From the NCBI RefSeq assembly GCF_002835465.1, contig NZ_PIZM01000002.1:248001-312000 (forward strand): a stretch of 64,000 bases of DNA. Direction: 5' to 3'. The position numbers and the translations under genes were made by a program. This document shows, piece after piece, positions 29,232 to 49,552 of the stretch; position 1 is the stretch's first letter, and every line of letters begins with the position of its first letter. This DNA is from Psychromonas sp. psych-6C06 (GTDB taxonomy: Bacteria > Pseudomonadota > Gammaproteobacteria > Enterobacterales > Psychromonadaceae). The notes under the pieces were generated by a model that ran no database searches, was not told where the DNA came from, and saw nothing but the letters and a program-made list of their open reading frames with translations.

Positions 29232-29469
29232 CTGGATTAGTCGCATACCAATAGTCGAGTAACGCTTGGCCATAAACTACCTCGACATTCATCTGCTTAA
29301 AAATCAACATCGAAAACCAGACACAGCCAATAATCCCGCCAAAAATAAACAGTTTGTGTCGATTAGTCTCATCTTCAATGACAATGCTTACCACCACTAA
29401 GTACAGCGGTGCAAAGACAAAAACTAACATAATAATCCAAAACGCATAATTAACCTGATTCATAAACAC
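29227..29469 (-). CDS. Small two-helix membrane protein, paralogue of the protein at 41759-42001
   Basis: An 80-residue protein with two membrane helices (about residues 8-28 and 40-58) separated by a charged IEDETNRHK loop. The C-terminus contains GQALLDYWYATNPE. It aligns end to end with the 80-residue product at 41759-42001: NYxxW at the start, ED-E in the loop, QMN-E after helix 2 and G-x-x-(I/L)LD-W near the end. The function is unknown. The two paralogues flank the triple-permease operon. Confidence 0.75.
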   Translation of the reverse strand: MFMNQVNYAFWIIMLVFVFAPLYLVVVSIVIEDETNRHKLFIFGGIIGCVWFSMLIFKQMNVEVVYGQALLDYWYATNPE

Positions 29470-29731: not shown

Positions 29732-31042
29732 TTACTGAGGTTGTTTATGACAGGGAAGTATGATGGTCGCAACCGCACCGGGGGCATTGTCATTATTCTC
29801 CAGTGTCAGCTCTCCTCCATGCGCTTCAATAATTTGTCGACTGAGTAACAGACCAATACCACTGCCCTGTTTTTTAGTTGAATAGAGCGGCACAAACAGG
29901 TTCTTGGTATTAGCTATCCCTGTACCGTTATCTGTAACAGTTAATGACAATACCTGCTCGTTGAGCTGAAAGTCCACCAGCACCCTGCCCTGTTGTTTCT
30001 GTTTGTGGTCAGTCGCTTCTAGCGCATTTTTTAAAAGGTTGATAAACACCTGCTCAAGCAACGTTGGGTCCAATTGCATTTCACATTTCAACTCAGTGCA
30101 TAACGCAAGACGTGGATCATTAAGCAATGCAATGCAACGGGCCAGCATTTCATTCACCGCGATGGATTGCAGCTTAGGCACCGGAAGATGGGTAAATTGT
30201 CGGTAGCTTTTGATAAAAGATTCTAAGCTTTTAGCGCGTTGCTCTATTAACTGTAACCCTTCTAATAGATCTTCATCTTCACCCACAGCACATTGCATCG
30301 ACTGACTAATCGATGCGATTGGCGTTAAACTATTATTTATCTCATGACTTAAAACACGTAATAGGTTTTTCCAAGCCTTTAACTCTTCAGCACGTAATAG
30401 ATGACTAACATCGGTAATGAAATACAGTTGAAACGCTTCGCCTTTATCAAAAAACTGCTCCTGAACACATTGCCAGCGCCCCTTTGCATTAGGGAATGAA
30501 TAACTAATCGGCTCATCTAAGGGTTGTTGAAAAAGTTTACGAATACCTAATGTGCTCGTCGACAACCCGACTAAACCATCGGCGGTAATAAACAGAGAAT
30601 TAGCTTTCTCATTCGCCAGCGTAATAGTGCTGGACGGATCTGCAGCGATGATCGCGACATCGATATTAGACACGATTTTCTGCAATAACAGCTGACTACT
30701 TTTATTACTTTGTTGTTGAAAGTAGGCGTGATCAATCAACTCATTAATCGCCTTGGCTAACTCAGAAAAACCATCATCATTAAACAAGCGCAGTTTTTGG
30801 CTAACATCTCCCTCTTTAACTGCGAGCACCATATTAGAAAATACATTAAGGCGCGCCTGCAATTTAGTGACCAACGTATAGGAAAGAAAGGCATATATGG
30901 CGAGCAACGTCACACTACTAAGCACAATCGGTAACCAAGAGATATTGGCATACCAAAGTATCATTGGTAGTAAAATAAGCGCAGGCAGGCTAATCAATAA
31001 CAGTGTTAATTTCAAGCGGGGTACAAGCGCACTAAAGTTCAT
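29732..31042 (-). CDS. NtrB/NtrY-like membrane sensor histidine kinase
   Basis: A 436-residue kinase with two membrane helices (about 12-30 and 36-56), a HAMP-like linker (about 60-110), a PAS-like region (about 120-215) and a kinase core. The phospho-acceptor is H233 in RVLSHEINNSLTPI. The ATP-binding boxes are NLLKNALEA, DNGTGI and GSGIGLLLSRQI. The periplasmic loop between the helices is nearly absent, so it may sense within the membrane or cytoplasm. It follows the sigma-54 response regulator with no gap, so the two form a two-component pair. It is the last gene of the ten-gene operon. Confidence 0.92.
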   Translation of the reverse strand: MNFSALVPRLKLTLLLISLPALILLPMILWYANISWLPIVLSSVTLLAIYAFLSYTLVTKLQARLNVFSNMVLAVKEGDVSQKLRLFNDDGFSELAKAINELIDHAYFQQQSNKSSQLLLQKIVSNIDVAIIAADPSSTITLANEKANSLFITADGLVGLSTSTLGIRKLFQQPLDEPISYSFPNAKGRWQCVQEQFFDKGEAFQLYFITDVSHLLRAEELKAWKNLLRVLSHEINNSLTPIASISQSMQCAVGEDEDLLEGLQLIEQRAKSLESFIKSYRQFTHLPVPKLQSIAVNEMLARCIALLNDPRLALCTELKCEMQLDPTLLEQVFINLLKNALEATDHKQKQQGRVLVDFQLNEQVLSLTVTDNGTGIANTKNLFVPLYSTKKQGSGIGLLLSRQIIEAHGGELTLENNDNAPGAVATIILPCHKQPQ

Positions 31043-32428
31043 CTACAAACCTAACTTATCAAGGCGACGATAGAATGCACTGCGACTTAAATCTAGTGAT
31101 TTAGCCGCCGAGGAAGCGCAACCTGAAAAAGCGTTCAAACGCGATGAAATTACCTTTCGCTCTATCTCTACAAGGGTTTTATCCGTAAAGGAGGCATCAA
31201 TGTTGTCACAGGCTTGATTGGTATCACTAGCACTATTTGTTAGCATTAGATGCTCTACCTCGATACTCTCAGTCGCAAGCAAAACAGCGCGCTCTATAGT
31301 ATGTGAAAGCTCACGGACATTACCCGGCCAACGATATTGCTGTAGTTGTTGTAACGCTTCGGCGCTTAATGTGGGTTTGGCTTTGTGGTAGCGTTTGGCG
31401 GTTTGCTCAATGAAGTCTTGCGTTAATAAAACAATATCTTCTTGGCGCTCGCGTAACGCTGGTACATGTAATACTAAGGTGTTCAAACGAAACATGAGAT
31501 CTTGCCTAAACTCCCCCGATTCGACCAAGGCTTGTAAATCGCCATTGGTGGCGCTAATCAAACGAAAGTTAGTCTGTTGTGTTTGGCTAGAGCCAACGCG
31601 CTCAAACTGTTTTTCCTCTAATACACGCAGTAATTTTGCCTGTTGAGTAAGGGGAACATTGGCAATTTCATCTAAAAATAACGTGCCTTGATCTGCTAAT
31701 TCAAAACGCCCGATACGGTTCTCTTTGGCATCGGTAAAAGCCCCTTTAATATGCCCAAACATCTCACTTTCAAACAGCGTTTCTGGGATACTACCCATAT
31801 TCACACTGACTAAAGGTTGCTTTGCTCGAAGAGAGAGTTGATGGATGAAGTTTACTAACATACTTTTACCCGTACCATTTTCTCCGGTCAGTAAAATATT
31901 AATATCAGTAACCGAAAACTGCTCAAGCTGGCACATTAACTGTTTCATCGGCGCAGAGTGTGCGATAGGTTTTAACGCTTCATTTCGCCCCAACTCCGAT
32001 TTTAAGAGCTGATTTTCAGCACTTAAACGATTACTTTGTCGGCTTTTGGCCGCCAATAACAATTGTTGATTGAGGATAGAAATTAAGCGTTCGTTATCCC
32101 AAGGTTTTTGCACAAAATCACTGGCGCCTAATTGCATTGCAACCACTGCAATCTCAATACTTGCCCAACCGGTCATCACCACAATCGGCAGTTCATCATC
32201 GAGCTTTTTGATCGCTTTAATCAAGGTTAAACCTTCATCGCCCGAGGTAGTATCTTGCTCATAATTGAGATCCATTAACACCAGATCAAAGCGCTCTTTT
32301 TTTACAAAAAATAACACTTCCTGTGGTGTATGGGCAAAAGTGACATCATAGGGCTGGCTTTTAAATAAAAACCGTAGACTAGTTAGAATGCCTTGATCAT
32401 CATCGGCGACCAATATTTTTTTAATCAT
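31043..32428 (-). CDS. Sigma-54-dependent response regulator (NtrC family)
   Basis: A 461-residue activator. The receiver domain has acceptor D53 in LVLMDLNYE. The AAA+ domain (about 150-385) has Walker A TGENGTGKS, Walker B TLFLDEIANVP and a sigma-54 contact loop written GAFTDA instead of the usual GAFTGA. The C-terminal Fis-type helix-turn-helix (about 420-461) has CASSAAKSLDLSRSAFYRRL. I infer that it activates the two sigma-54 promoters at 42627 and 43227 through the paired TCCCA-N4-TGrrA sites. It is co-transcribed with its kinase and the ABC system. Confidence 0.93.
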   Translation of the reverse strand: MIKKILVADDDQGILTSLRFLFKSQPYDVTFAHTPQEVLFFVKKERFDLVLMDLNYEQDTTSGDEGLTLIKAIKKLDDELPIVVMTGWASIEIAVVAMQLGASDFVQKPWDNERLISILNQQLLLAAKSRQSNRLSAENQLLKSELGRNEALKPIAHSAPMKQLMCQLEQFSVTDINILLTGENGTGKSMLVNFIHQLSLRAKQPLVSVNMGSIPETLFESEMFGHIKGAFTDAKENRIGRFELADQGTLFLDEIANVPLTQQAKLLRVLEEKQFERVGSSQTQQTNFRLISATNGDLQALVESGEFRQDLMFRLNTLVLHVPALRERQEDIVLLTQDFIEQTAKRYHKAKPTLSAEALQQLQQYRWPGNVRELSHTIERAVLLATESIEVEHLMLTNSASDTNQACDNIDASFTDKTLVEIERKVISSRLNAFSGCASSAAKSLDLSRSAFYRRLDKLGL

Positions 32429-32460: not shown

Positions 32461-34872
32461 TTAGTCAGCACGAAGGTGCGCTGAGGGCGTTAACTTTAAT
32501 ACTTTCCATAACGCCGTAAAAACAGCAAATACAATCACCATAAACAAGACAACAAACACACCTAATAGATTCAATAACATATCTGATGGAGAGGTAATAA
32601 ACGTCGCTAATTTCCAATAACAAAAGAGTGTGCCTGCGATCCCCCCCACCAATAAAGCAATAAACTGATCCCACATGGTGGTGCGTAAAAAGAGCTTCAC
32701 AACCTGCCCATTACTGGCGCCAATTGAACGCCTTATGGCAATATCGCGCTGTTTTTGATTAACGCTGTTGACGGTGACACCATAAATACCCGCCCCCGCT
32801 AATAATAACGAAATCGCCCCTAACAGGGTAAACAGTCGTGATGAAAATTCGATGCTACTCGAATAAACGGCTAATAGGGCGCGATAATTCATGCTATAAA
32901 ATTGTGGCACTTCAGGATCCACTGCAAACATCTGTTGCTCGATACTGGCTAATAGGTCATCTGCATTGCCTTGAAAGCTGAGCGCAAACTGGTAATAGCT
33001 ATAATTATATTGTTTGATAGGGACGTACACGCCCCCTAATTTTGATAAATTGCCAAAAGAAACGCCATGACGAATATCGGCAACCAAACCAACAATCAAA
33101 GCCTTAGGGCTTTCTTCAAAATCTTCTAATACAATGGTTTTACCAATAACATCCTCATTGGGCCACAATGTATCGGCTAACGTTTGGCTAATAATGGCGA
33201 CTAAGGGTTGGTTTTGATCATCACCCGTATTGAAGTGACGTCCTGCCAACAATGGAATATTGGTCATCGTTAACATGTCTTCATCAATAAAAGCACTGTT
33301 GGCGTAGATTGGGCCACCGGATAAGGTTTGATCACGTGCATGTACGCGAGAAACCCAAGCATTGGTTCCGGGCAAAGTCGAAGAAAAAGCCACCTTGTCC
33401 ACCGCCGGCAATGCAAGCAGCTTGCTCTTTAAGTCATCAATATACCGGCTTCGTTTAGATTGAGAATCAAATTTTTTGAGCGGTAAATAAAGCATGCTGG
33501 TATAAAGATTATCACTGAGATACTGCTCATCGGTCTTAGAAGAGTATTGAATATTAACCAGCAGTAATAATGCAATGGTTAAAATAAATGCCGACACACC
33601 GACCTCTACTTTTAATAGGTGACGGCTCAATAGGACCACATAATAATTGGTCGCCCCAGGGCCTGATTTTCTCAGTAGTTCATTAAATCTTGCCCCACTT
33701 GCTTTGATGCCAGGTAAAACACCGCTTAGCAATACAACGCTAATAATCACCGAAGCGGTAATATACAAATTAAACGGTGCTAAAGTAAAATCAAGCCAAT
33801 AAGGCGCACCAGCATAATCAAAACTCGCAAAATAAACATTCGTTAACTGTAGCGCCCAGGTGACGATCAGTAATGCTAATCCACCAGCTACCAATGTCAA
33901 AAGTAAACTTGGCCATGTCATTTGCATCACCAAACGCAATTTTGGCGCCCCTAAAGCTCGGCGCATCGCGGTTTCACGACTATATTCAACCGACTTTGAA
34001 AGCAGTAAGGCACTGACATTTAAAATCGTTAATAACAGTAAAAACAAAGCACAAAAAATAAGTGCCCACATGCCCGCCATTAACTCTTGTCCTATGTATT
34101 CCTTCTGAAAGGTTTCTACATAGGCATTAATACCATAACTGGTTTTAGGAAATTTTTGGGCAATGCTTTTCATTAGTTTACTAACGTCGTCATTAGCAGC
34201 AGCCATTGAAATACCTGTTTTCAGCTTCGCCACCGCAGTTTGATACCACCACTCATCATCACCACGAATCAATAACTCACGTTTAATCGGTAACCACAAC
34301 TGTGTGTATCCCGGAAAACTATACCCCTTCGCCATCACACCAACAATTTTCGCTTGCTCTGAATTAACCGCAATTAAACTGCCTAGCGCTTGCTTACCAT
34401 CAGCATAATATCGTTGCCATAACTCATAACTAATCATTGCCACTAAAGGTGCGCCAGCAACCGCATCTTGGTCAGTAAAGGTTCTCCCTAAAAACGGGGC
34501 AATATTAGTTATCTTGAATACATCGGGTTCAACACTGCTGGCAAAGTGCGCGTAAGTTTTATCATCAATTGCGACGTTCGCCCGATAACTACCAATCAGC
34601 CCAGACTCAGCAAAGCTTTGACTCTGCTCGACGATATCAACCACATCAACATCAATTAGGCTAGAGCCAAATCGTTGACCATCAATCTCTTTGCCCAGCA
34701 ATACGATTTTATCGCCCCCCTCAAAGGGTAATGCTTTAAATGCCAAGGCGTGAACAAAGCTAAATATGTATAAACTAATCGCTAAACCAAAGGTCATCAC
34801 CAGTAGTAACAAACCACTAAAACCAGGGGATTTGAATATTAAACGTAGTGCATACTTTAAATCGTTAAACAT
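32461..34872 (-). CDS. MacB/FtsX-type ABC permease, third of three tandem paralogues
   Basis: An 803-residue permease with a duplicated MacB-PCD plus FtsX plan. A first helix lies at about residues 18-42, a periplasmic domain at about 45-265, and three helices at about 270-400. A second half follows with one helix near 425-445, a periplasmic domain of about 240 residues and three C-terminal helices. The FtsX segments ALLLSKSVEYSRETAMRRALG and DIAIRRSIGASNGQVVKLFL are conserved in both halves. It is more diverged than the other two. Such type VII ABC permeases usually transmit force across the envelope rather than move substrate through the membrane. The substrate is unknown. Confidence 0.88.
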   Translation of the reverse strand: MFNDLKYALRLIFKSPGFSGLLLLVMTFGLAISLYIFSFVHALAFKALPFEGGDKIVLLGKEIDGQRFGSSLIDVDVVDIVEQSQSFAESGLIGSYRANVAIDDKTYAHFASSVEPDVFKITNIAPFLGRTFTDQDAVAGAPLVAMISYELWQRYYADGKQALGSLIAVNSEQAKIVGVMAKGYSFPGYTQLWLPIKRELLIRGDDEWWYQTAVAKLKTGISMAAANDDVSKLMKSIAQKFPKTSYGINAYVETFQKEYIGQELMAGMWALIFCALFLLLLTILNVSALLLSKSVEYSRETAMRRALGAPKLRLVMQMTWPSLLLTLVAGGLALLIVTWALQLTNVYFASFDYAGAPYWLDFTLAPFNLYITASVIISVVLLSGVLPGIKASGARFNELLRKSGPGATNYYVVLLSRHLLKVEVGVSAFILTIALLLLVNIQYSSKTDEQYLSDNLYTSMLYLPLKKFDSQSKRSRYIDDLKSKLLALPAVDKVAFSSTLPGTNAWVSRVHARDQTLSGGPIYANSAFIDEDMLTMTNIPLLAGRHFNTGDDQNQPLVAIISQTLADTLWPNEDVIGKTIVLEDFEESPKALIVGLVADIRHGVSFGNLSKLGGVYVPIKQYNYSYYQFALSFQGNADDLLASIEQQMFAVDPEVPQFYSMNYRALLAVYSSSIEFSSRLFTLLGAISLLLAGAGIYGVTVNSVNQKQRDIAIRRSIGASNGQVVKLFLRTTMWDQFIALLVGGIAGTLFCYWKLATFITSPSDMLLNLLGVFVVLFMVIVFAVFTALWKVLKLTPSAHLRAD

Positions 34873-34883
34873 CGTACATATCC

Positions 34884-37283
34884 TTATTCAGCGCGTAAGG
34901 CATAGGCGGGGTTATGCTTTAACACCTTTAATAGTGGCACCGTGACAGCAATACAAATAACCCCCATAAATAGAACCACCACCGCTAAAAAAAGCGCAAG
35001 CATTAATGGCGTTGTCATCACAAAGTCAGCCAAAAACAGATAACAAATTACGTAGGCAAGCACGACACCGCTGATCAAGCTTAATAATAATTGTCTACTC
35101 ACTTGACCGATAAAATGAATGACCAACTGTCGTTTTGTCGCCCCAAGCGCACGACGAACACCGATTTCCCGTAAACGTTGCCTGATACCATTAGCAGTAA
35201 CACCATATATCCCTAAACCCACTAATATCAGTGCAACTAATGCTATTAACACAAATAATTGTGAGCCTAACATCAGCTGTAGCATGTTATTTCCTAAAAC
35301 CTGCTCATAGGGCATGATATTAAAAGCGGCATTATCAGGGTCAAGCTCAAATAAGGTACTGTTGATCTGTTTGATCATCGCTTCTTGGTCTCCCGAAAAA
35401 GCCACCATTACTTGATTAGAAAGGGTGTTGAATTGATTATTAAGCAAGTAAATTCCCCCTTCATCGGCCGTTGCAGAGAGTATGTTGCCATGCTCAATAT
35501 CTTTGATCACCCCAATCACCTTAAGCCAAGCATGATATTCGATACGTTTGCCAATGGGAGATTCACCAGGCCATAACCTTTGTGCAAGCAGATCACTGAT
35601 CACCACAACGCCCTGCGTATCAGATTGATCTGATGGTTCAAATAACCGCCCTATAATGGGCTCAATATTCAACAGAGAAAAAAGATCCTGACTCACAAAC
35701 ACAGTATTGGCATAAACAGGTGCGCTATCTTTCGCTCTACCAACCACATTTACCTCGCTGACCCAAGCTAGCTGGCCAGGCATTGAAGAGCCAATCGCCA
35801 CGTTTGTAACATTCTCTAACGCTTCAATTTTTTGTTCTAACTCGCGAAGCGCTTCAGCGCGCACATTTGGCAATTGGAAAGGCCCTAATGGAAGTTCGAG
35901 GCTAATACTAAGCAGTTTACTTTTATTAAACTGATGTAACGCGTGGTTACTCTGTAACGTGTTAAACACAAACATAAATGAAACAATCAACACCATGGTT
36001 GATAACGCCACCTCTACCTTAATAAGCACACTACTCAATTTGCCAATGCGGTAATTTATTGCACCACGAGCGCCGATATGTAAAATATTGCTAAAGTGCC
36101 CACTGGTCGCTTTGAAACTCGGTAAGACACCGGCAATAAAAAATGTGCTAAGCACAAAGGCAAGGGTGATTAACAACAGGGTGCTATCGATAGAAAATAT
36201 CCACCAATATAGGAATTGGCTATCGATAAAGGTACTGATAATAGAATGTGTATAGGTCAGTGTCCACGAGACAATCAATAGTGCTAATGCGCCACTAATA
36301 AAGCAAACAATGATGCTTTCCCATAACATCAGCATGATCAAACGATATCGAGGAGCCCCCACCGCGCGACGAATAGCGATGTCATTGGTGCGCTCAAGCG
36401 CCTTAGAAAATAATAAACTCCCCACGTTAATAGCACTCAATAACAGTAACAACAGCGCTCCGACACTGAGTGCATAGACGGCAATGATTCCCTGTTGACC
36501 AAGCGCTTGTTTGGGTAGGGTTTCGACATATATACCCACATCAGACTGAGTTTCAGGGTGATAATGAAAGCGCGATATTTCCGACATAATAGCGCTAACA
36601 TCTTGGTTTGCCATAGCAGTTGAAACATTAGCTTTTAATTTCGCAATTGCCCCTAAATAGGTGAACTTACCACGCTCAATCAAGGAGCGATCAAAGGCAT
36701 ACCAAATATCGATATTCAATGGAAAACGATACCCTTCTGGCATGACCCCAACCACCGTAATGAACTGATTGTTTACGTTGATTTTTTTTCCAATAACATA
36801 TTTATCGAAGGAAAAATGCGTTTTCCATAGGCGATAACTGATCACCACATTGGGCGGTGCCTTATGCTCAATATCACATTTTTGTAAGGTTCGCCCCAGT
36901 ACAGGTAAGGCCTGTGTAAGTTCAAACAGTCCCGGATCTACTTTTAGCCCTTGTAATCGCTTTGAAGTCGAGCCTTTATTAAGCGTCAATCCGACATACT
37001 CATAAAACAGCAAAGTGGCAAAACTCTGGTTTTTTTCATCTATTTCTAGCAGATCAGAAGCTAAAATTTCGCCACCTGTTAAACGCATGCCATTAAGCGC
37101 TTTATCTACAACAACCACCCTTTCACTTTGCGCAAAAGGAAGGGGCTTAAACACCAACGTATTCACTAATGAAGCGATGTAAATAGAGATGCTCAAGCCA
37201 GCGGTCATCATTGCAATCACAAACAACGTAAAGGCAGGAGCTCGATAAAATCGTCGTAATGCGTATCGTAAATCGCTAAGCAT
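34884..37283 (-). CDS. MacB/FtsX-type ABC permease, second of three tandem paralogues
   Basis: A 799-residue paralogue of the flanking permeases, with the same eight-helix duplicated layout and the motifs SLLFSKALERTNDIAIRRAVG and LREIGVRRALGATKRQLVIHF. It is closest to the permease at 37292-39688 (shared WW-FSID, ATSG-F and IKVE-ALS segments in the centre), which points to a tandem duplication. It lies 8 bp after that gene and 11 bp before the next. All three copies keep both halves intact, so none looks decayed. Confidence 0.88.
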   Translation of the reverse strand: MLSDLRYALRRFYRAPAFTLFVIAMMTAGLSISIYIASLVNTLVFKPLPFAQSERVVVVDKALNGMRLTGGEILASDLLEIDEKNQSFATLLFYEYVGLTLNKGSTSKRLQGLKVDPGLFELTQALPVLGRTLQKCDIEHKAPPNVVISYRLWKTHFSFDKYVIGKKINVNNQFITVVGVMPEGYRFPLNIDIWYAFDRSLIERGKFTYLGAIAKLKANVSTAMANQDVSAIMSEISRFHYHPETQSDVGIYVETLPKQALGQQGIIAVYALSVGALLLLLLSAINVGSLLFSKALERTNDIAIRRAVGAPRYRLIMLMLWESIIVCFISGALALLIVSWTLTYTHSIISTFIDSQFLYWWIFSIDSTLLLITLAFVLSTFFIAGVLPSFKATSGHFSNILHIGARGAINYRIGKLSSVLIKVEVALSTMVLIVSFMFVFNTLQSNHALHQFNKSKLLSISLELPLGPFQLPNVRAEALRELEQKIEALENVTNVAIGSSMPGQLAWVSEVNVVGRAKDSAPVYANTVFVSQDLFSLLNIEPIIGRLFEPSDQSDTQGVVVISDLLAQRLWPGESPIGKRIEYHAWLKVIGVIKDIEHGNILSATADEGGIYLLNNQFNTLSNQVMVAFSGDQEAMIKQINSTLFELDPDNAAFNIMPYEQVLGNNMLQLMLGSQLFVLIALVALILVGLGIYGVTANGIRQRLREIGVRRALGATKRQLVIHFIGQVSRQLLLSLISGVVLAYVICYLFLADFVMTTPLMLALFLAVVVLFMGVICIAVTVPLLKVLKHNPAYALRAE

Positions 37284-37291
37284 TTATCACT

Positions 37292-39688
37292 TTACTCCGC
37301 ACGCAACGCAAAGGCAGGTTGTTTTTTTAATATTCCCAGGAGCGGAATAATCACGGCGCAGGCTATCACCACAACAATAATGGTGACCACCGCCACTAAG
37401 ATAATCAGCATTATCTTCTGGTCGACTAAAAAAGTGCTTAGTAGGTAGTAACAGATTAACAGCGCAGCGAACAAACCGAGACTGAGGCCAATAAGCAACT
37501 GGCCGATCATTTTCTTAATGAAATACAATATGACCTGAGCCTTGCTTGCCCCTAATGCACGACGAATACCGATTTCACGCAAACGTTGGTTAATGCTGTT
37601 AGCGGTGACGCCATAGATACCAGAGGCGGCTAAAATCAGCGCGACAAAGGCTAAAATAGCAAACAGTTGCGAGCCAAACATCATCGCCGTTAAGTTTTTA
37701 TCTAACATGCTTTGGTAGGGCATTAAATTAAATGCGGGCACATTATCATCAATCTTATATAACACACGACTTACCTGTTCAATGAGCGCGGCTTGATCAC
37801 CATTAAACTGCACCAATACGGTATTAAAAGTACTACTTGCTTGGCTGTTAATGAGATAAATACCCCCCTCCTTCGATGAACTATAATGGGATATTCCGTG
37901 ATCGATATGGGCAATCACGCCGATCACTTCTACCTGTGCATTGTTAATATTGGGTAAGCCCACACGTTTACCAATCGCTGATTCATTTGGCCAAAGTTTT
38001 TCGGCAAGGGAGTTACTAACGACCACCATTAACCTTTCACTCTGTATGTCTGCGAGTTCAAACAAACGTCCTTCAAGCGGGGTGATGTTAAGTAGTGCAA
38101 AAATATCATGGTTAACAAATACAGTATTAGCAAAAACTTGCTCTAAAAGATGCCCTTCTCCAGCTCGATTTACCTCAGTAACCCAAGCAAGATTTCCGGG
38201 GATAGATGATCCCATTGCAACATTTTCTACACTTGCTAATTGCTCAAGTTGCGTTTCAACGCGACGTAAAAAACGTTGTCGTTGATCCAAGTGTTGGTAA
38301 TCGTGATAGGGTAAGTGGAGTGTGAAAGTTAATAAGTTATTTTCATCAAACTGATGTAAGTGCTGGTTACTTTGTAGCGTGTTAATGACAAACATGGCCG
38401 AGACCACCAAGATCATCGCAGAAAGCGCAATCTCAACTTTAATCAATACTTTACTTATTTTCCCTACCCGCTGGTTAGTCGCACCACGACCTCCTTGGCG
38501 TAAAATATCGTTGAATTGCCCACTTGTTGCTTTCCAACAGGGTAAAAACCCAGCAATAAAAATGGTACTTAATACGATTATAATCGTCGCAATAATGGTG
38601 TCATTGTCAATCGAGAATACCCACCAATACAGTGGTTTGTTGTAGCTTATCTTTGTAAAAATGGGGTTAGTAAGCTGCAATGCCCAAGCTGCAATCAACA
38701 AAGCTAACACACCGCTGATAGAACAAATAATCACACTTTCCCATAACATCTGCATGACCAAGCGGTAACGTGGCGCCCCTAATGCACAGCGAATAGCGGT
38801 TTCGTTCGCGCGCTCAAGTGCTTTCGATAATAATAAACTGCCAACATTCACACAACTAAGGAGTAAAACAAAGAACGCAGCCCCAATAAGCGCATAAATA
38901 GCCGGCATCGTCTGGCTACCGAGCGCTTGTTTTTGTAGGGTATCGACATAGGCGCTAACACCGTAATTACTTTCGGGGTATTGCTGCGATAGTTGAAGCA
39001 TAATGCTAGCAATCTCTTTATTAGCTGTACTTAATGAGATCTGAGGCTTTAAGTTAGCAATGCCGGCAACATTAAAGTCAGTACCACGCTTAATATAATC
39101 GCGCTCAAGAGCAAACCAGATATCGGCGTTATATGGAAAGCTATATCCTTCAGGCATCACCCCTACCACAGTCATGGTTTGGTTATTAACCTGTAATGTT
39201 TTACCAATAACCGCCGCGTCTAAGGCAAAATAATCCAGCCATAACTGATAACTAATCATGGCATTATCACGGCTGGTATCCTTTTTTTGTAGCAAACGCC
39301 CGAGCAAGGGTAAGGTATTGGTTAACTCTATTCCGCCCGGTTCGATGTTAATCGCCTGTATCCGTTTGGCGGTTTGCTCAATACTAATATTGGCATAAAA
39401 CTGTTGATAGATAATAAGCGTATCAAAACTATTACTGCGTTGGCTGATTTCGAGTAGATCTGCTCCCTGCAATTGAGAGCCTGCAAACTGCATTCCGTGT
39501 AACATTTTATCGATTACGACGATATTTTCGCTGTCAGGAAAGGGCAAGTTTTTAAAAACCAAAGTATTCATGAATGATGCCATGTAGATACTAATGCTTA
39601 AACCACAGGTCATCACCGTTAATACTAATGCCGTAAAAGCAGGGGCTTTATACAGCAAACGTAAGGCATATCTGAAATCATTCCACAT
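37292..39688 (-). CDS. MacB/FtsX-type ABC permease, first of three tandem paralogues
   Basis: A 798-residue permease that starts MWNDFRYALRLLYKAPAF and has FtsX segments LLLSKALERANETAIRCALG and LREIGIRRALGASKAQVILYF. Helices are near residues 18-40, 270-290, 322-345, 375-395, 425-445, 680-702, 728-750 and 762-785. It follows the ATPase gene by 9 bp and precedes the second permease by 8 bp. A single ATPase is available to all three permeases, so they may assemble as alternative or mixed dimers. Confidence 0.88.
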   Translation of the reverse strand: MWNDFRYALRLLYKAPAFTALVLTVMTCGLSISIYMASFMNTLVFKNLPFPDSENIVVIDKMLHGMQFAGSQLQGADLLEISQRSNSFDTLIIYQQFYANISIEQTAKRIQAINIEPGGIELTNTLPLLGRLLQKKDTSRDNAMISYQLWLDYFALDAAVIGKTLQVNNQTMTVVGVMPEGYSFPYNADIWFALERDYIKRGTDFNVAGIANLKPQISLSTANKEIASIMLQLSQQYPESNYGVSAYVDTLQKQALGSQTMPAIYALIGAAFFVLLLSCVNVGSLLLSKALERANETAIRCALGAPRYRLVMQMLWESVIICSISGVLALLIAAWALQLTNPIFTKISYNKPLYWWVFSIDNDTIIATIIIVLSTIFIAGFLPCWKATSGQFNDILRQGGRGATNQRVGKISKVLIKVEIALSAMILVVSAMFVINTLQSNQHLHQFDENNLLTFTLHLPYHDYQHLDQRQRFLRRVETQLEQLASVENVAMGSSIPGNLAWVTEVNRAGEGHLLEQVFANTVFVNHDIFALLNITPLEGRLFELADIQSERLMVVVSNSLAEKLWPNESAIGKRVGLPNINNAQVEVIGVIAHIDHGISHYSSSKEGGIYLINSQASSTFNTVLVQFNGDQAALIEQVSRVLYKIDDNVPAFNLMPYQSMLDKNLTAMMFGSQLFAILAFVALILAASGIYGVTANSINQRLREIGIRRALGASKAQVILYFIKKMIGQLLIGLSLGLFAALLICYYLLSTFLVDQKIMLIILVAVVTIIVVVIACAVIIPLLGILKKQPAFALRAE

Positions 39689-39697
39689 AATTGTCTG

Positions 39698-40423
39698 TTA
39701 CGCTTTTTTTGTTTGTAATTTAGCATCGTCCACGAGCTTGCCATCAAACAACTCAATCACACGCTGTGCAAGGTGAGCGTTAGCAGTATCATGGGTTACC
39801 ATGCAAATCGTTGCCCCCTGTTCGTGTAATGATTTAAATAAAGACATCACCGCTTGCGCATTTTTAGAGTCTAAGTTACCCGTCGGCTCATCGGCAAAAA
39901 TGATCGAAGGAGAGCCGACAATGGCACGAGCGACGGCAACACGTTGCTGCTGCCCCCCCGACAGTTGTGACGGATAATGAAAAACGCGATTACCCATGTT
40001 CACTTTACTCAACGCTTCATACACTTTTTCTTTTATTTCACGCGCAGAAAACTCTTTTCGGTAGGTTAAGGGTAAGGCGACATTCTCTTCGACGGTCAAA
40101 TCACTGATTAAGTTAAAAGACTGAAACACAAACCCCATCTCTTTATTACGTAATTTGGCTTTTTCGCTTGCCGACAGGGTATTAACGGACTGCCCCTTTA
40201 AGAAAAACTCGCCTTCGGTGCAATCATCTAATAACCCCATAATAGATAAAAGCGTCGATTTACCACAGCCAGATGGGCCTGCAATCGATACAAATTCTCC
40301 CTCTAAAATTTGCAAATTTATTGTTGATAACGCGTGTGTTTCAAGCTCTTGGGTATAAAAAACTTTACTGCTATTACATAACTTTATTAGTGGCTTGTCT
40401 GCAACTTTACTCATATTCTTCAT
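39698..40423 (-). CDS. ABC transporter ATPase (MacB/LolD type)
   Basis: A 241-residue ATPase with Walker A GPSGCGKST, Q-loop FVFQSFNLIS, signature LSGGQQQRVAVARAI, Walker B IIFADEPTGNLDS and the switch His in MVTHD. The N-terminal KVFYTQELETHALSTINL is typical of the LolD/MacB/FtsE group that pairs with FtsX-like permeases. It is the only ATPase in the operon and must energise the three permeases downstream. The first ATG at 40423 or the one three codons later could be used. Confidence 0.93.
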   Translation of the reverse strand: MKNMSKVADKPLIKLCNSSKVFYTQELETHALSTINLQILEGEFVSIAGPSGCGKSTLLSIMGLLDDCTEGEFFLKGQSVNTLSASEKAKLRNKEMGFVFQSFNLISDLTVEENVALPLTYRKEFSAREIKEKVYEALSKVNMGNRVFHYPSQLSGGQQQRVAVARAIVGSPSIIFADEPTGNLDSKNAQAVMSLFKSLHEQGATICMVTHDTANAHLAQRVIELFDGKLVDDAKLQTKKA

Positions 40424-40490: not shown

Positions 40491-41747
40491 TTACATTATG
40501 TTAATGGTGCGATGCTGACGCCAAGCTGAACTATCGGAGATAATCACTCTATCTCCGCGTTTCAAGCCCGCTTCCAAGGCGATTTCAGAGAGTGAAGCTT
40601 GTCCGAACTGCACATTAATGGCATCAGCAAACTGCCCATCGTCGCTGAGTTTATAAACGCGATTAGTACTACTTTTTTTGACAAACACTGGCCGACGTAC
40701 AAACAGGGTGTTATCGATTTGGGTGATCGTTATACTGGCCTCTATCGACATATCGGGCCTTGCATCGGGGCTTAATTCCCCCTGTACATCCACATCGACC
40801 AAAACAATGCCTTGATCTACAGAGGGGGCAATTCGGCTAACAATACCGGTTAATGGATAGTTAAGCGTATTAATATTTACGTGCTGACCAATAATCACCT
40901 GGCGCACATCTGACTCAGCAACTTCAAGCTGTGCGTACAGCTCATTTTGTTTACTCAATAGCGATAGATCACTGCCAATATTAATGCGCTGACCAAGCTT
41001 AACCGGAACCTGTTGCACGGTGCCGTCGAGGGTCGCTTTCACCTGTAACGCATCCACATCCTGCACGGCGCGTTTTAAAGTATTTGCTAATAGTCGTCGA
41101 TTGGCTTGATTGGCATTTTGCTGCGCGCTGCGGTTTTCTTTCATCTGCAATAAACGACGTTGCTCATTTTTCCATGATTTCGCTAATTGCGTCACCTCAA
41201 GCTGTGAACGCTGATAATCGATGCGAGAAATTGTATTGTTACCTTTTTCAAGTAACTTAGTTTCAGCTTCCAATTTTAACTTCGCACTGTCATAGGCCAT
41301 TTTGGCCTCTGAAATTAGTAGGACTTGATCGAGTAGCTTAGAAGCAAGCGCGACTTGATCTGCCTTATGTTGCGCAGTGAGCGCTTCAAGCTGCCATTTT
41401 AGCGTTTCTACCGATTGCACCAATTTACGATTTTCCAGGTGTAATAAAATATCGCCCTGTTGCACGGTATCACCCGGTTTGACATATATTTTTTCAACTC
41501 GTCCTGCCACCTGTGAGGCAACCCAGCGTTCATTGGCAGAGAGCAAGCGCCCGGAGCCTCTTACACGAATGGTAAAATCGCCCTGCTCAACCGAGGCAAT
41601 TATCAGCGAGTCACGTTGCACACTAAACTGCCCATAGTGACGATTAACAAGCAGGTAACTCATCACCAGTAGCAAGAGAGATATCAGACTCCATAAAACG
41701 ATTTTTAGGACGCGATAATTTTTTTTAGGCGCGCGAATAATATCCAT
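40491..41747 (-). CDS. HlyD/MacA-type periplasmic adaptor protein
   Basis: A 418-residue membrane-fusion protein. One N-terminal helix (about 14-34) is followed by a split biotinyl-lipoyl domain (GRVEKIYVKPGDTVQQGDIL and a second half near 235-260), and a long coiled coil (about 100-215). The beta-barrel region contains LNYPLTGIVSRIAPSVDQG, and the membrane-proximal part ends near the stop. It should bridge the ABC permease to an outer-membrane channel such as TolC. No TolC gene is in the window. It lies 11 bp after the 80-residue membrane protein. Confidence 0.92.
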   Translation of the reverse strand: MDIIRAPKKNYRVLKIVLWSLISLLLLVMSYLLVNRHYGQFSVQRDSLIIASVEQGDFTIRVRGSGRLLSANERWVASQVAGRVEKIYVKPGDTVQQGDILLHLENRKLVQSVETLKWQLEALTAQHKADQVALASKLLDQVLLISEAKMAYDSAKLKLEAETKLLEKGNNTISRIDYQRSQLEVTQLAKSWKNEQRRLLQMKENRSAQQNANQANRRLLANTLKRAVQDVDALQVKATLDGTVQQVPVKLGQRINIGSDLSLLSKQNELYAQLEVAESDVRQVIIGQHVNINTLNYPLTGIVSRIAPSVDQGIVLVDVDVQGELSPDARPDMSIEASITITQIDNTLFVRRPVFVKKSSTNRVYKLSDDGQFADAINVQFGQASLSEIALEAGLKRGDRVIISDSSAWRQHRTINIM

Positions 41748-41758
41748 TTATCGTGTTT

Positions 41759-42001
41759 CTATTTCAGTTCATTATTGTTTTCAAACCAAGCGTCTAATAT
41801 GTCTTTACCAAATAGGAACTCTTCATTCATTTGCAGATATAGTAAGACAGAGAAAATGATCACTCCCCAAATGGCTCCCCAAATCAAAAAGCGTTTACGG
41901 ATCTCTTCATCTTCAACCAGTACAAAAGCGCCCACGAAATAACAGGGAAAAACCATAAAAATCATGATCAACATCCAAAGCGTGTAATTACTTCCATTCA
42001 T
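41759..42001 (-). CDS. Small two-helix membrane protein, paralogue of the protein at 29227-29469
   Basis: An 80-residue protein with helices at about 7-29 and 41-58, a VEDEEIRKR loop and a C-terminal GKDILDAWFENNNELK. It matches the gene on the other side of the permease operon along its whole length. It sits 11 bp before the adaptor gene, inside the operon, so it is likely part of the envelope machinery. The function is unknown. Confidence 0.78.
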   Translation of the reverse strand: MNGSNYTLWMLIMIFMVFPCYFVGAFVLVEDEEIRKRFLIWGAIWGVIIFSVLLYLQMNEEFLFGKDILDAWFENNNELK

Positions 42002-42035: not shown

Positions 42036-42302
42036 TTACGAAAAACGAAAATAACTCGCAATCGCGCCTAGTACAACAATACAGCTAACAAAGAGGTGTG
42101 ATGTTGCAAATTCACTTAAACTGTCGATATTAACTTGATTAGTGTGCTTGAGCGCTTCGGTTTTATTTTTAGCTTGCACCACATCACCAATGCGTTCAAA
42201 ACCCTGTTCGATTAATTGATACTTTTCTTCTATAAATGACGGGCTATCAATCTCTAAGACCACTGCCACTTGCTGTTTTTTATATAATTGATAATTGCTC
42301 AT
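42036..42302 (-). CDS. Small tail-anchored protein in the sigma-54 operon
   Basis: An 88-residue protein beginning MSNYQLYKKQQVAVVLEID, with a charged middle and one C-terminal helix (about 66-84, HLFVSCIVVLGAIASYF). The open frame extends to 42425, but AAGGAAAACCTA before the ATG at 42302 and the overlap of the longer form with the upstream gene favour the short product. I do not recognise the family. It is the second gene of the ten-gene operon. Confidence 0.65.
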   Translation of the reverse strand: MSNYQLYKKQQVAVVLEIDSPSFIEEKYQLIEQGFERIGDVVQAKNKTEALKHTNQVNIDSLSEFATSHLFVSCIVVLGAIASYFRFS

Positions 42303-42354
42303 TAGGTTTTCCTTTTTAACTATTTCAAATGTCTGTCGCATTAGTGTTTTACGT

Positions 42355-42582
42355 TTAAGAAGGGCCGACACCACCGGATGTACCGCCACTAGCATGAAGA
42401 TCACTGCTATCATGTGATACCTCACTAAAATTAAGTCGCCCTTTAATTGCCATTATTGCTAAGGGCAAAAATATGAGTGACCCTAACGCGATAATAATCG
42501 CCAGTGCCACATTGCCACTAACAAACAGATACACAATGAAAGCGAACAGTGATAAACCAAGAAAGCTGATAAATATTTTCAC
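42355..42582 (-). CDS. Small two-helix membrane protein, first gene of the sigma-54 operon
   Basis: A 75-residue protein with two hydrophobic stretches (about 3-23 and 25-47) and a Ser/Gly-rich polar tail (HASGGTSGGVGPS). The start is GTG at 42582 with GGGAG 8 bases upstream. The predicted sigma-54 transcription start lies about 33 bp before it. The function is unknown. Its position makes it the lead product of the operon. Confidence 0.68.
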   Translation of the reverse strand: MKIFISFLGLSLFAFIVYLFVSGNVALAIIIALGSLIFLPLAIMAIKGRLNFSEVSHDSSDLHASGGTSGGVGPS

Positions 42583-42626: not shown

Positions 42627-42642
42627 TGCAAAAAGCAGACCA
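42627..42642 (-). promoter_or_regulatory. Sigma-54 promoter of the triple-permease operon
   Basis: The minus strand reads TGGTCTGCTTTTTGCA. It has the invariant GG and GC separated by 10 bases and the preferred TTGCA at -12. It is placed 45 bp before the first gene of an operon that itself encodes a sigma-54 activator. Confidence 0.75.
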
Positions 42643-42705
42643 AAACATAACGCATTGAAAATAAAGTTATTTTATATTGTTTCATGTTGTATTAACGATT
42701 TAACA

Positions 42706-42741
42706 TCCCATTAATGAAACATTAAAATCCCAATAATGGGA
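42706..42741. promoter_or_regulatory. Paired upstream activator sites for the operon promoter
   Basis: TCCCATTAATGAAA at 42706-42719 and TCCCAATAATGGGA at 42728-42741, 22 bp apart. The second is a perfect TCCCA-N4-TGGGA palindrome. They begin 64 bp upstream of the sigma-54 promoter, the usual position of enhancer-binding protein sites. The same motif pair occurs at 43304-43338. Confidence 0.7.
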
Positions 42742-42813
42742 AAACCCGCCTCGCTTATAGAATAGATTCCAGAGTCGATTACATGATGCTGTGTTTATCG
42801 CTGTTATTGTGCG

Positions 42814-43185
42814 CTAATACAGCTGGATGGGATGAATCGTTGAAAGCATCTGCGGTTTTTTAGCAATAAAATTAAAGTTACCTGACAAAGGCTCCTTCAC
42901 CACCACCCTACCATTTGCTTCATTACTTAAATGTCCCTGTTTTATAGCAGCTTTGGCTTTACACTGTTTTTCTTGTCGCCAAACGGGATCAATCGATGAT
43001 CCACGCATAATCTCTTCGCTGATTGCCCTTGCATAGTCACAACATTGGCGAGCTGTGAAAGTAGTTTCTTGATTTAACTGATTAGCTTGCGCTGTAATAA
43101 TATAGTGCGGATTCGATTGCGCAGCGCCTGTTACCAACAAGCTATTTATGCAGATTAGGCTAGCGACAACAGTGAGCTTATTCAT
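42814..43185 (-). CDS. Small secreted protein under a sigma-54 promoter
   Basis: A 123-residue protein with a signal peptide (MNKLTVVASLICINSLLVTG, cleavage probably near residue 24) and a mature part with CC and C residues (RQCCDYARAISEEIM, EKQCKAKAA). No family is recognised. AAGGGA lies before the ATG. It has its own sigma-54 promoter with paired activator sites of the same type as the operon, so I infer that it belongs to the same response, for instance as a sensor accessory or effector in the periplasm. Confidence 0.7.
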   Translation of the reverse strand: MNKLTVVASLICINSLLVTGAAQSNPHYIITAQANQLNQETTFTARQCCDYARAISEEIMRGSSIDPVWRQEKQCKAKAAIKQGHLSNEANGRVVVKEPLSGNFNFIAKKPQMLSTIHPIQLY

Positions 43186-43226
43186 ATTTTCCCTTTATAA
43201 TATTCGATATACAAAGGGGTAACATG

Positions 43227-43242
43227 AGCAACAAGTGTTCCA
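43227..43242 (-). promoter_or_regulatory. Sigma-54 promoter of the small secreted protein gene
   Basis: The minus strand reads TGGAACACTTGTTGCT, close to the consensus TGGCAC-N5-TTGCW, with GG-N10-GC intact. The gene starts about 42 bp downstream. Confidence 0.8.
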
Positions 43243-43303
43243 AACCTCAGGCAATTGATTTTAAAGGGTTATTTTTAATTCGACTTTCTGGTGGAAGTTT
43301 TTG

Positions 43304-43338
43304 TCCCAATAATGAATCGTTAATTCCCATTTATGAGA
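43304..43338. promoter_or_regulatory. Paired upstream activator sites for the secreted protein promoter
   Basis: TCCCAATAATGAAT at 43304-43317 and TCCCATTTATGAGA at 43325-43338, 21 bp apart, beginning 62 bp upstream of the sigma-54 promoter. Motif, orientation and spacing copy the pair at 42706-42741. Confidence 0.7.
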
Positions 43339-43376: not shown

Positions 43377-43853
43377 TTAATAGATTTCCATCACCTCATA
43401 ATGAATCGTCTTGCTGGCAATATTAATCGTAATCTCTTGCCCTACTTCAGCTTGATTAATAGCAGCGCCTAGTGGCGAACTCGCCGTCACCACCACCACT
43501 GTTTTATCTGCAAAATTAATACTTAAACCACCCGCCGTCGGTGCAAAGAACAACCACTTTTCATGATCGTTATCATCTAATAATCTTACCAGTGCACCCG
43601 CTGATACCTTCGTTGGTAGGTTATTAATATTAAGCGCTTTAAAAGCGTTAATATCCTGCGCACATTGCTCAACACGCACCGATTGCCCATGGGCTAAATA
43701 GGATGCTTCCAGCGCTAAGGTATCGTATTGGTTCTCGGCAACATTCTCATTATCAGTCGCGGTATCATAGGCCCGTTTAGCTGCATCAACCGCGCATTGA
43801 TGCACCTCTTCTAAGGTAGCTAATAATCGCTTTAATAATAATTTTTTATTCAT
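43377..43853 (-). CDS. GreA/GreB-family transcription factor-like protein
   Basis: A 158-residue protein. The N-terminal half is helical (LLKRLLATLEEVHQCAVDAAKRA), reminiscent of the Gre coiled coil. The C-terminal half matches the GreAB C-terminal domain: WLFFAPTAGGLSINF, VVTASSPLGAAINQAEVGQEI and a final IHYEVMEIY. This pattern is common in stand-alone GreAB-domain proteins of marine gammaproteobacteria. It may act on RNA polymerase but is not GreA or GreB itself. Start at 43853, AGGTG about 9 bases upstream. Confidence 0.8.
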   Translation of the reverse strand: MNKKLLLKRLLATLEEVHQCAVDAAKRAYDTATDNENVAENQYDTLALEASYLAHGQSVRVEQCAQDINAFKALNINNLPTKVSAGALVRLLDDNDHEKWLFFAPTAGGLSINFADKTVVVVTASSPLGAAINQAEVGQEITINIASKTIHYEVMEIY

Positions 43854-44034
43854 GATAAACACCTAACAGGGTAATGATGGAATGTTACTTAGATAGGTGA
43901 ATATGATGCCGATAAAAGCCTAACAACAACACCAAACTTTGCGATATGTAAGCACGCCACTGATTGTATGCACAGATTTGAGTATTTTATTTTAGGTATA
44001 AAAAACTAGCTAAAAACTGGATTATTTAAAAAAT

Positions 44035-44255: not shown

Positions 44256-44341
44256 TGGTGCCCGGAGCGAGACTTGAACTCGCACGCACAGAATGCACAA
44301 GATTTTAAATCTTGGGTGTCTACCGATTCCACCATCCGGGC
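44256..44341 (-). tRNA. leuZ: tRNA-Leu (UAA)
   Basis: An 86-nt class II tRNA with GCCCGGA acceptor strand, an anticodon stem CAAGA/TCTTG around loop TTTAAAA (anticodon UAA), a variable arm, the T loop GTTCAAGTC and an encoded CCA. It is third in the glyW-cysT-leuZ operon, as in E. coli. Fragments of its 3' half recur downstream. Confidence 0.97.
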
Positions 44342-44355
44342 AAAACTTTAAAACT

Positions 44356-44429
44356 TGGAGGCGGAACCCGGAGTCGAACCGAGATAGATGGATTTGCAAT
44401 CCACTGCATGGCCACTCTGCCATTCCGCC
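44356..44429 (-). tRNA. cysT: tRNA-Cys (GCA)
   Basis: A 74-nt tRNA from GGCGGAATGGCAGAGTGG to TCCGCCTCCA. Anticodon loop TTGCAAA gives GCA, with U73 typical of Cys tRNA. It is the middle gene of the operon. Confidence 0.97.
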
Positions 44430-48295: not shown

Positions 48296-49552
48296 TTAAA
48301 AAACATCGCGCCTACGAAAATAAAATAAGATTAATGTAAACACCCAAAAACTACCAATTGCACCACCAGAGGTTGTTGTAGTGCTTGGCTCATTTTTTTC
48401 CTGTGGCTTCTTTGAATTATCCACAATGAGAGGCTCTTCAACATTATTAAACATCACATCATTAACAACCACACCACCCGATGTAATATCGGCAAGTGTC
48501 AATGTACTACTATTTATCACCTCCCCGCTTTGCGTAACAATATTTTGATTCAAAAGCCCCCCGTCGAGGGTTACCAAACTACCAGCGGCTAAGGTAATAT
48601 AATTCTTGCTATTATCAGTTCCCTTTACTGAAGTAACTAAGCTATCATCCCCCCCACCAACATTAATAATGTCGATAAGATCGCCCCCTGTTGCAAAACT
48701 AAATGTATCCGTTTTACTACCTCCAACTAATGTTTCAATATTGCTAAAGCACATTAGCAGTGTTTCATTTTCACTAGAAATATTACCTTTATTTTCAGCA
48801 TTAATCTCCCATACCGTATTTTGATTTGGACCAATGATTTTATCGCGACCAGCCTCACCATCAATACAGGCTATCGAGCCTATTATTGGCTTATCGTTCC
48901 TCAATGCTTCAACCCTGAAGGTGTCATCCCCAACGCTGCCAGTCACGGCTTCAACACCTTCAACCTCAAGCCCAATCTGTTCAATTTGTAACGTTTTTGG
49001 ATTTAATAAATATGTATAACCAGGTAAGGCAACATTACTTTTTAATGTATCTAATGAAATTAAAAAATGTGATTTTTGTCCATTTAAGGTGAATGTGCCA
49101 AAAGCTTCAGCAATGGATATATTTTCAGGGAAATAATTAAAAGAGATTAAAAATGACATAGGTGCAAGGATTTGGCTCGTTCCATCGACAAAACTCACGG
49201 CTAATTCTTCGCCTAAATTATTTATCGCCATGTATACTGTTTCACCCGAGCCCCTAGTCGCCATTAAGCCAATAGTTTGCGATTCACTTCCACTGGCTAA
49301 CTCTAATGTAGCGTAATCCTCTCCAACAACAGACTCTGCCAGTAGTTGCCAATCCTGAGCAGATAGAGTGACATTATCTGAAGCAAGGATCAGAGTGGTT
49401 AAGCTTGAAAGGGTTGTTATAACTCTGTTTTGTTGTGTTTCCAATGGTGCAACAGCATGCGCGCTAAACATGAACAATATGGGAAATAATCCCAGTAACC
49501 TTCCCCCATATTCTATAAAACAACTTTTCTTAAAACTTACGCGTGTTCCCAT
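48296..49552 (-). CDS. Exported protein with a GlyGly-CTERM (rhombosortase) sorting signal
   Basis: A 418-residue protein. The N-terminal hydrophobic segment (about 18-34) ends in AHA, a likely signal peptide. The mature part is acidic and rich in Gly, Asn, Ser and Thr, with beta-repeat segments such as GGSKTDTFSFATGGD and VGGGDDSLVTSV. The C-terminus has a Thr/Ser linker, SGGAIGS, a membrane helix (WVFTLILFYF) and RRR. That is the GlyGly-CTERM tripartite signal processed by rhombosortase in type II-secreting bacteria. The specific role is unknown, and surface display is inferred. Confidence 0.78.
   Translation of the reverse strand: MGTRVSFKKSCFIEYGGRLLGLFPILFMFSAHAVAPLETQQNRVITTLSSLTTLILASDNVTLSAQDWQLLAESVVGEDYATLELASGSESQTIGLMATRGSGETVYMAINNLGEELAVSFVDGTSQILAPMSFLISFNYFPENISIAEAFGTFTLNGQKSHFLISLDTLKSNVALPGYTYLLNPKTLQIEQIGLEVEGVEAVTGSVGDDTFRVEALRNDKPIIGSIACIDGEAGRDKIIGPNQNTVWEINAENKGNISSENETLLMCFSNIETLVGGSKTDTFSFATGGDLIDIINVGGGDDSLVTSVKGTDNSKNYITLAAGSLVTLDGGLLNQNIVTQSGEVINSSTLTLADITSGGVVVNDVMFNNVEEPLIVDNSKKPQEKNEPSTTTTSGGAIGSFWVFTLILFYFRRRDVF

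Follow-up and report, generated by a model that had tools for sequence, protein, structure and literature searches.

Paired TCCCA-N4-TGGGA sites ahead of sigma-54-type promoters as putative operators of a VfmH-like response regulator in Psychromonas

A 64,000-nucleotide stretch of contig NZ_PIZM01000002.1 from Psychromonas sp. psych-6C06, hereafter called the window, contains two minus-strand promoters of the GG-N10-GC type (P1 and P2), each preceded by two sites resembling TCCCA-N4-TGGGA. This arrangement raises the question of which protein, if any, the sites serve. Re-reading of the coordinates placed both promoters and all four sites at the positions given by an earlier sequence-only reading. 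It also confirmed the spacing of 22 bp between the sites at P1 and 21 bp at P2, and the perfect palindrome, which is the distal site of P1. The downstream genes had likewise been assigned correctly: P1 leads into an operon ending in a response regulator and a kinase, and P2 into a small protein with an apparent signal peptide (Table 1). All four sites match CATWAWTGGGA in the gene direction, the promoter-side half TGGGA being constant and the opposite half variable.

Table 1. Promoters, putative operators, IHF-like boxes and genes (window positions unless a contig is named; operator sequences in gene direction)
Feature	Position	Strand	Remarks
P1 promoter, sigma-54 type	42627..42642	-	TGGTCTGCTTTTTGCA; drives the transporter/two-component operon
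P1 IHF-like box	42648..42660	-	TTTCAATGCGTTA; 8/9 defined positions of WATCAANNNNTTR
P1 proximal putative operator	42706..42719	-	TTTCATTAATGGGA
P1 distal putative operator	42728..42741	-	TCCCATTATTGGGA; perfect palindrome
P2 promoter, sigma-54 type	43227..43242	-	TGGAACACTTGTTGCT; ahead of the gene for the 123-aa secreted protein
P2 IHF-like box	43248..43260	-	AATCAATTGCCTG; 8/9 defined positions
P2 proximal putative operator	43304..43317	-	ATTCATTATTGGGA
P2 distal putative operator	43325..43338	-	TCTCATAAATGGGA
123-aa protein	42814..43185	-	P2 target; apparent signal peptide (our reading); separate gene upstream of the operon
75-aa small membrane protein	42355..42582	-	First gene past P1; no Pfam/NCBIfam family
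88-aa small protein	42036..42302	-	No Pfam family
80-aa membrane protein	41759..42001	-	No Pfam/NCBIfam family above cut-off
HlyD/MacA-type periplasmic adaptor	40491..41747	-	PF16576, PF13437; TIGR01730 above cut-off
ABC ATPase, DarD/LolD-like	39698..40423	-	PF00005; best equivalog DarD, 260 bits, below cut-off of 375
Permease 1	37292..39688	-	MacB_PCD and FtsX domains
Permease 2	34884..37283	-	MacB_PCD and FtsX domains
Permease 3	32461..34872	-	MacB_PCD and FtsX domains; ADOP-like, 486 bits, below cut-off of 622
NtrC-type response regulator	31043..32428	-	REC, sigma-54 AAA+, Fis HTH; proposed owner of the sites
Sensor histidine kinase	29732..31042	-	Last gene of the operon
C19 promoter	C19		Before a 484-aa beta-lactamase-family lipoprotein (PF00144; lipoprotein by our reading)
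C11 promoter	C11		Before an M16 peptidase lipoprotein (lipoprotein by our reading)
C8 promoter	C8, near 54.4 kb		Precedes the gene for a 104-aa membrane protein (our reading)
C8 promoter	C8, near 132.7 kb		Precedes the gene for a 212-aa protein anchored N-terminally (our reading)

Promoters were scored on an ad hoc -24/-12 scale for sigma-54, on which P1 and P2 reached 25.0 and 26.5, respectively; a score of 25 was attained at 12 of the 275,826 positions of the strain's own genome that were checked. Sigma-70 promoters in the region were at chance level. Within the 64-kb window, TCCCA-N4-TGGGA with at most two mismatches was observed 14 times against 14.6 expected, and TGG-N8-TTGC 14 times against 10.3. 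Lone sites and lone GG-N10-GC matches are at chance frequency, whereas the combination and the pair exceed it.

This excess became apparent in the whole genome (3.72 Mb in 32 contigs, the window lying within contig C2), in which a sigma-54 gene was found. Its UvrC shares 86% identity with those of Psychromonas aquimarina and P. ossibalaenae, and 93-94% with the three nearest matches, which places the host in Psychromonas or near it. P1 and P2 are the only two places with the pair CATNNNTGGGA-N9..24-CATNNNTGGGA, which is absent from the reversed control. A slightly looser pair yielded five occurrences, again against none in the control, each of the five being accompanied, in the same slot, by a sigma-54-like promoter scoring 23-26.5. 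Perfect sites located 45-75 bp before TGG-N9-TGC gave three matches in this genome, including a new one on contig C11 (control 0), and ten places in seven genomes when 27 genomes were scanned (control 1), of which those on G303 C3 and in G403 are not known targets. A half-site combined with a promoter was found four times (control 0); three of these matches belong to the six-promoter set described below, and the fourth sits inside an apparent kinase gene.

A composite scan, covering 1.327 Mb of the 3.72 Mb (36%) with the six loci included, returned exactly six places with a pair score of at least 15/20, all of them at 16 or above, and none in the reversed control at 15 or above. At a pair score of at least 14/20 there were eight places versus one in the control; the candidate promoters numbered 4609 versus 2561 in the control. 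The six places comprise P1, P2 and four further promoters on contigs C8, C11 and C19 (Table 1), and each carries an IHF-like box matching at least seven of nine positions. Their geometry is shared: the distal site lies 97-100 bp and the proximal site 76-78 bp before the GG, giving a spacing of 21-23 bp, or about two helical turns. A simpler scan for TGGGA-N57..65-promoter found 12 places (control 4), including all six promoters; of the six places outside the set, three lie beyond the 1.327 Mb of the composite scan. The claim that the equal geometry of P1 and P2 exceeds chance was therefore upheld by the empty controls of the pair scans and by the composite scan, and the four additional promoters of the same build bear out the predicted regulon at the level of the sequence. 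Singly, CATWAWTGGGA occurs 13 times in the genome versus 18 times in the reversed control. For lack of enrichment we rejected a global-regulator site; what stands out is solely the occurrence of the sites in phased pairs.

Two observations were made at the C8 targets. The 104-aa protein (L236:10571-10885) gave a sub-threshold AgrB match (18.8 of 23 bits), probably by chance, and broken frames that look transposase-like by eye adjoin the 132.7-kb promoter (L237, ~9.0-9.7 kb).

All six promoters bear the IHF-like box at one fixed offset, with 7-9 of the nine positions of WATCAANNNNTTR, which we took as an ad hoc IHF consensus. The best mean score of the six was reached by 0 of 1000 shuffles. Singly, the C8a box is the sole one that stands out: the P1 box alone is not significant (equalled in 81 of 300 shuffles), and the P2 box was equalled in 35 of 300. 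In 18 relatives the box is weak, with a best mean of 5.0/9 at one base off.

The ten closely spaced minus-strand genes that follow P1, with gaps of at most ~70 bp, were treated as one operon. It encodes, in order, three small membrane or anchored proteins, an HlyD-type adaptor, an ABC ATPase, three MacB/FtsX-type permeases, the regulator and the kinase. The start of the 88-aa protein was picked by eye; the ORF called mechanically spans 42036-42425. Adaptor and regulator lie ~4.4-4.9 kb apart in 39 of 52 related operons (range 2.2-7.7 kb) versus 9.3 kb here, so the permeases have probably been duplicated. The 123-aa P2 protein showed no relative but itself among ~5.8 billion proteins searched, and no Pfam, NCBIfam or PADLOC family.

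The regulator exceeds the cut-offs of PF00072, PF00158 and PF02954, carries a GAFTDA loop in its AAA+ domain and has the recognition helix SRSAFYRR. GAFTDA in place of the sigma-contact loop GAFTGA was found in all nine of the closest aligned regulators and in 49 of the 52 operons, with GSFTDA in one and the loop unread in two. The available part of a regulome paper lists GAFTDA among the loop variants expected to stay active (PMC4641369). In PADLOC, the regulator matched CARF-AAA-HTH (RtcR-type) models alone, across the AAA and HTH part. We do not claim a defence system.

Conservation of the sites in relatives that keep the operon had been set beforehand as the test that could overturn the sequence-only reading. 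A single-protein scan with the adaptor gave no match in named genomes, in which 80 loci were found with an alignment of regulators. The adaptor is present in 46 of 394 genomes of the order, and a strict double palindrome in two of the 394, each time in the ~190 bp ahead of the adaptor gene, with none in the control; the closest orthologues are 82-84% identical. Sites together with a sigma-54-like promoter were detected in 25 of the 80 named-genome loci, among them those of Photobacterium, where the pair is spaced by 22 bp, and of Thalassotalea, Pseudomonas, Rahnella, Serratia, Dickeya and Lonsdalea. No fewer than four of these 25 (L111, L124, L141, L148) appear to be chance matches. No site with a promoter was seen in the four loci of Pseudoalteromonas (L091, L093, L098, L099).

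From 139 loci, we obtained 66 with a regulator downstream of the adaptor (52 after removal of near-copies) and 27 without one; the other loci, including both from Dickeya, were excluded for lack of an adaptor match, less than 150 bp upstream or less than 7 kb downstream. When all palindromes were counted without prior choice, TCCCA-N4-TGGGA was the commonest perfect dyad with 5-bp arms upstream of the adaptor. The perfect form occurs in 14 of the 52 operons with a regulator versus one of the 27 without. Allowing one mismatch, the site was present in 20 of the 22 operons whose regulator has the helix S[AT][FY]YRR, the class to which the window regulator belongs, versus one of the 30 others, in which the helices include SGYYRR, SALYRR and NSLYRR (Fisher p 3.6e-11). 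The background at the same tolerance was 23 of 688 equal-length windows tiled over the same loci. Conservation thus held, both as the top dyad of the 52 operons and in its tracking of the helix. The exceptions are L076, with a site and the helix SALYRR, and L171 and L178, with SAFYRR and no site within one mismatch.

On a regulator tree built without the fragment L161, the site label needs 5 changes versus 16.5 in shuffles. The association of helix and site is clustered on this tree, so that it comprises five independent pairs, of which three to four agree and none disagrees (sign test p 0.125-0.25, not significant on its own). Pairs scoring at least 16/20 were found in 19 of the 22 S[AT][FY]YRR operons, counted as the best pair per locus without a null, and 17 of these 19 are spaced by 22, 33-34 or 41-42 bp. 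These spacings are near whole helix turns and vary by lineage. For the SGYYRR/SGFYRR group of eight loci (L156, L157, L158, L160, L098, L099, L169, L173), we detected neither the site nor a strong sigma-54 promoter up to 1.5 kb upstream of the adaptor, and no alternative dyad in more than two of the eight. Sites, phase, promoters, co-occurrence and the helix association are evidence at the sequence level. The sequence-only reading had proposed the site as the regulator's binding motif, and its tracking of the recognition helix supports this proposal; binding itself we infer.

The closest studied system is the Vfm quorum-sensing system of Dickeya, whose VfmH is homologous to the window regulator. 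In D. oryzae and D. undicola (L084, L086), the corresponding regulators share 53-54% identity with that of the window and adjoin kinase and ABC genes. The site had been called new-looking. This description stands insofar as we found no published TCCCA-N4-TGGGA operator in a literature that was covered thinly for subscription journals; the system is less unknown than had been thought, its regulator being a VfmH homologue. According to the available part of a review, VfmH shows in vitro binding to the promoters of vfmE and vfmA but does not regulate vfmFGHIJ (PMC7912708). We assigned vfmA and vfmE in the two loci from the published gene order. In both Dickeya genomes, a perfect site lies 65 bp before the vfmE promoter, and L086 has a pair 22 bp apart there. 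Upstream of vfmA, the pairs are 21 bp apart and weaker (6 and 9, or 7 and 8, matches of 10), with no GG-N10-GC in the expected slot. The two 21-kb loci contain five and seven sites with at least 8/10 matches.

VfmH has the GAFTDA loop and is needed for vfmE transcription, as stated in the accessible text of a 2023 study, which describes a VfmH pull-down without sigma-54 and leaves the role of sigma-54 open (PMC10714721). As the promoters are conserved, we argue that VfmH acts through sigma-54. The VfmG permease has been proposed as a co-sensor in the part of another paper available to us (PMC9306890), a model that would fit the window operon with its three permeases. The systems also differ. 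The adaptor gene is unmatched in the two Dickeya loci, and the window operon has three permeases; the AraC-type VfmE has no relative in the window or in the stretches of the four other promoters (L222, L236, L237, L238); and, unlike Vfm, the regulon of this genome extends to lipoprotein hydrolases.

Other known systems are more distant. GlrR/QseF is likewise a sigma-54 response regulator with dyad operators, given as TGTC-N10-GACA in the accessible part of the source (PMC8745638). A sequence TGTCCCA-N4-TGGGACA would fit both consensuses, but none of the 12 own-genome sites, judged by eye, has both outer halves TGTC and GACA, and the window regulator scored 291 of 763 bits for GlrR, under the equivalog cut-off. 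Its best NCBIfam model is PrsR of the PEP-CTERM/exosortase system PrsR/PrsK (TIGR02915; 354.8 bits, under the cut-off of 502.6). In comparison with the darobactin exporter DarBCD, the best ATPase model was DarD (260 of 375), while DarC reached 63 of 450, both below cut-off.

No close regulator was found in the 23 other genomes of the genus: ranked by E-value, the top match shares 41% identity, and matches of up to 49% identity span the AAA+ part alone. The pair pattern occurs in these genomes at seven places in five genomes (reversed control 3), and none of the seven has a sigma-54 score of at least 21 within 220 bp in either direction. In one genome, G004, thrABC and the response regulator of window positions 28468-29184 are collinear with 78-83% DNA identity, and a frame with an end that looks transposase-like by eye takes the place of the operon. 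There, between an arcA-like gene and aroC (L264, G004:C18, ~14.3-15.6 kb), a relic-like site pair persists, and after it comes a P1-like stretch that lacks a good -24/-12 match; the local alignment score was 65 versus at most 28 in 200 shuffles. Four M16 orthologues were identified in the genus; three lack the sites, and the fourth, from G004, retains a weaker pair in the corresponding position but no promoter match. These features are suggestive of the G004 site pairs being relics of a lost operon. Elsewhere in the genus scan, G011 has a site pair 22 bp apart upstream of a gene that looks pnuC-like by eye, with an IHF-like box and no good -12 element (L253/L266, G011:C246).

Could the sites belong to another DNA-binding protein, with the regulator acting elsewhere or only via its AAA+ domain? 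L170 (G303:C8) has an adaptor operon preceded by two perfect sites at a spacing of 33 bp, with no regulator in the stretch examined, on a contig that ends ~2 kb upstream. In Pseudomonas, Rahnella and Dickeya, a divergent gene for an AraC-type regulator starts from the same region. However, AraC relatives (tblastn, E up to 1e-6) were found in 12 of the 144 sequences searched, and are absent from the window and from the site-bearing loci of Photobacterium (L074/L075) and Thalassotalea (L077/L083). Site presence instead follows the recognition helix of the response regulator (20/22 versus 1/30), and VfmH itself binds vfmE and vfmA according to the available part of the review (PMC7912708). We therefore regard ownership by a different protein as unlikely.

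The palindromes might also act as RNA hairpins, that is, as terminators or attenuators, rather than as operators. The perfect palindrome at P1 is followed by TTTT and resembles a terminator for the P2 transcript, a configuration found once versus 1.1 times expected in shuffles. In all six cases a fixed distance separates the sites from the promoter downstream of them, and sites such as those of C11 and C19 have no subsequent T run, which makes a hairpin role very improbable. A repeated short motif beside chance GG-N10-GC matches would agree with the chance frequency of the single elements in the window. Against this, the reversed controls of the pair scans were 0, the composite scan set six promoters apart with a control of 0 at equal score, and other genera carry the motif ahead of the same operon. 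Chance was rejected by the genome-wide reversed controls, and we consider its probability negligible.

The four sites are thus very probably operators for the response regulator whose gene comes late in the operon, through which it would activate sigma-54 promoters in a self-amplifying regulon. The site pairs most likely serve as docking sites from which this sensor-controlled regulator switches on its own transporter operon and several exported proteins. The whole is best read as a classical sigma-54 enhancer-binding-protein regulon with a newly recognised operator and a regulator from a little-studied, widespread group. Binding, phosphorylation, IHF bending, activation, feedback and the signal are steps that we infer. 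The kinase would phosphorylate the regulator, dimers of which would occupy both sites on one face of the DNA and assemble into an AAA+ ring. This ring may reach the sigma-54 polymerase across the IHF bend, and ATP hydrolysis would then start transcription. The response is expected to amplify itself because P1 heads the operon with the regulator and the kinase; the self-amplifying regulon of the sequence-only reading fits this gene content, as a regulator within its own operon predicts a positive loop.

The regulon products comprise an ABC exporter with a periplasmic adaptor, two lipoprotein hydrolases (M16 and beta-lactamase family) and several small proteins that are exported or sit in the membrane. 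With the exception of the ATPase, the regulator and the kinase, all look like envelope or exported proteins in our reading; most likely, therefore, the regulon responds at the cell envelope to a compound from outside the cell that the exporter handles. The two hydrolases hint that this compound is perhaps a peptide.

A broader and tentative idea, which we hold to be rather less probable than not, is that a VfmH-type module of exporter, kinase and GAFTDA sigma-54 regulator is widespread in Gammaproteobacteria, and in Acidobacteriota with altered operators, where it senses and answers a secreted peptide or small molecule. A permease would act as co-sensor, and TCCCA-N4-TGGGA would be an operator code set by helix residues. 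If true, such a code would make regulons, and perhaps signals, readable from genomes. The candidate operator is specific and testable for a broad, little-studied group of sigma-54 response regulators that includes VfmH, and it makes testable the GAFTDA/sigma-54 question for VfmH-type regulators that the accessible text of the 2023 study left open (PMC10714721). A discrete six-promoter regulon of a marine bacterium was derived from sequence alone; in it, an orphan exporter is joined by two lipoprotein hydrolases and by small exported proteins. The relatives offer a natural series in which changes of the recognition helix accompany the absence of the operator.

Several features around the operon and at distant loci were noted in passing. 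Directly upstream of P2, a 161-aa protein (43377-43862, minus strand) has a GreA/GreB C-terminal domain (28.1 versus a Pfam cut-off of 26.9 bits). A 418-aa secreted-looking protein (48296-49552, minus strand) combines a glycine-rich stretch, a hydrophobic segment and an RRRD tail, which look by eye like a sorting signal; it had no NCBIfam match. Two tRNA genes (44259-44429, minus strand) lie near the upstream side of the operon, and Rfam found nothing else nearby; tRNA genes are a common setting for acquired DNA. The 80-aa membrane proteins at 29227-29469 and 41759-42001 (both minus strand) are paralogues with 38% identity over 78 residues, and their genes sit on either side of the exporter and two-component genes. 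In the Acidobacteriota locus L095 (~2.9-3.1 kb), a pair spaced by 32 bp and a sigma-54-like promoter lie 7 kb away from the regulator, ahead of genes for another ABC ATPase and permease. In L229 (G303:C3:120351), a perfect site 45-75 bp before TGG-N9-TGC lies 315 bp before a frame resembling, by eye, an anaerobic ribonucleotide reductase.
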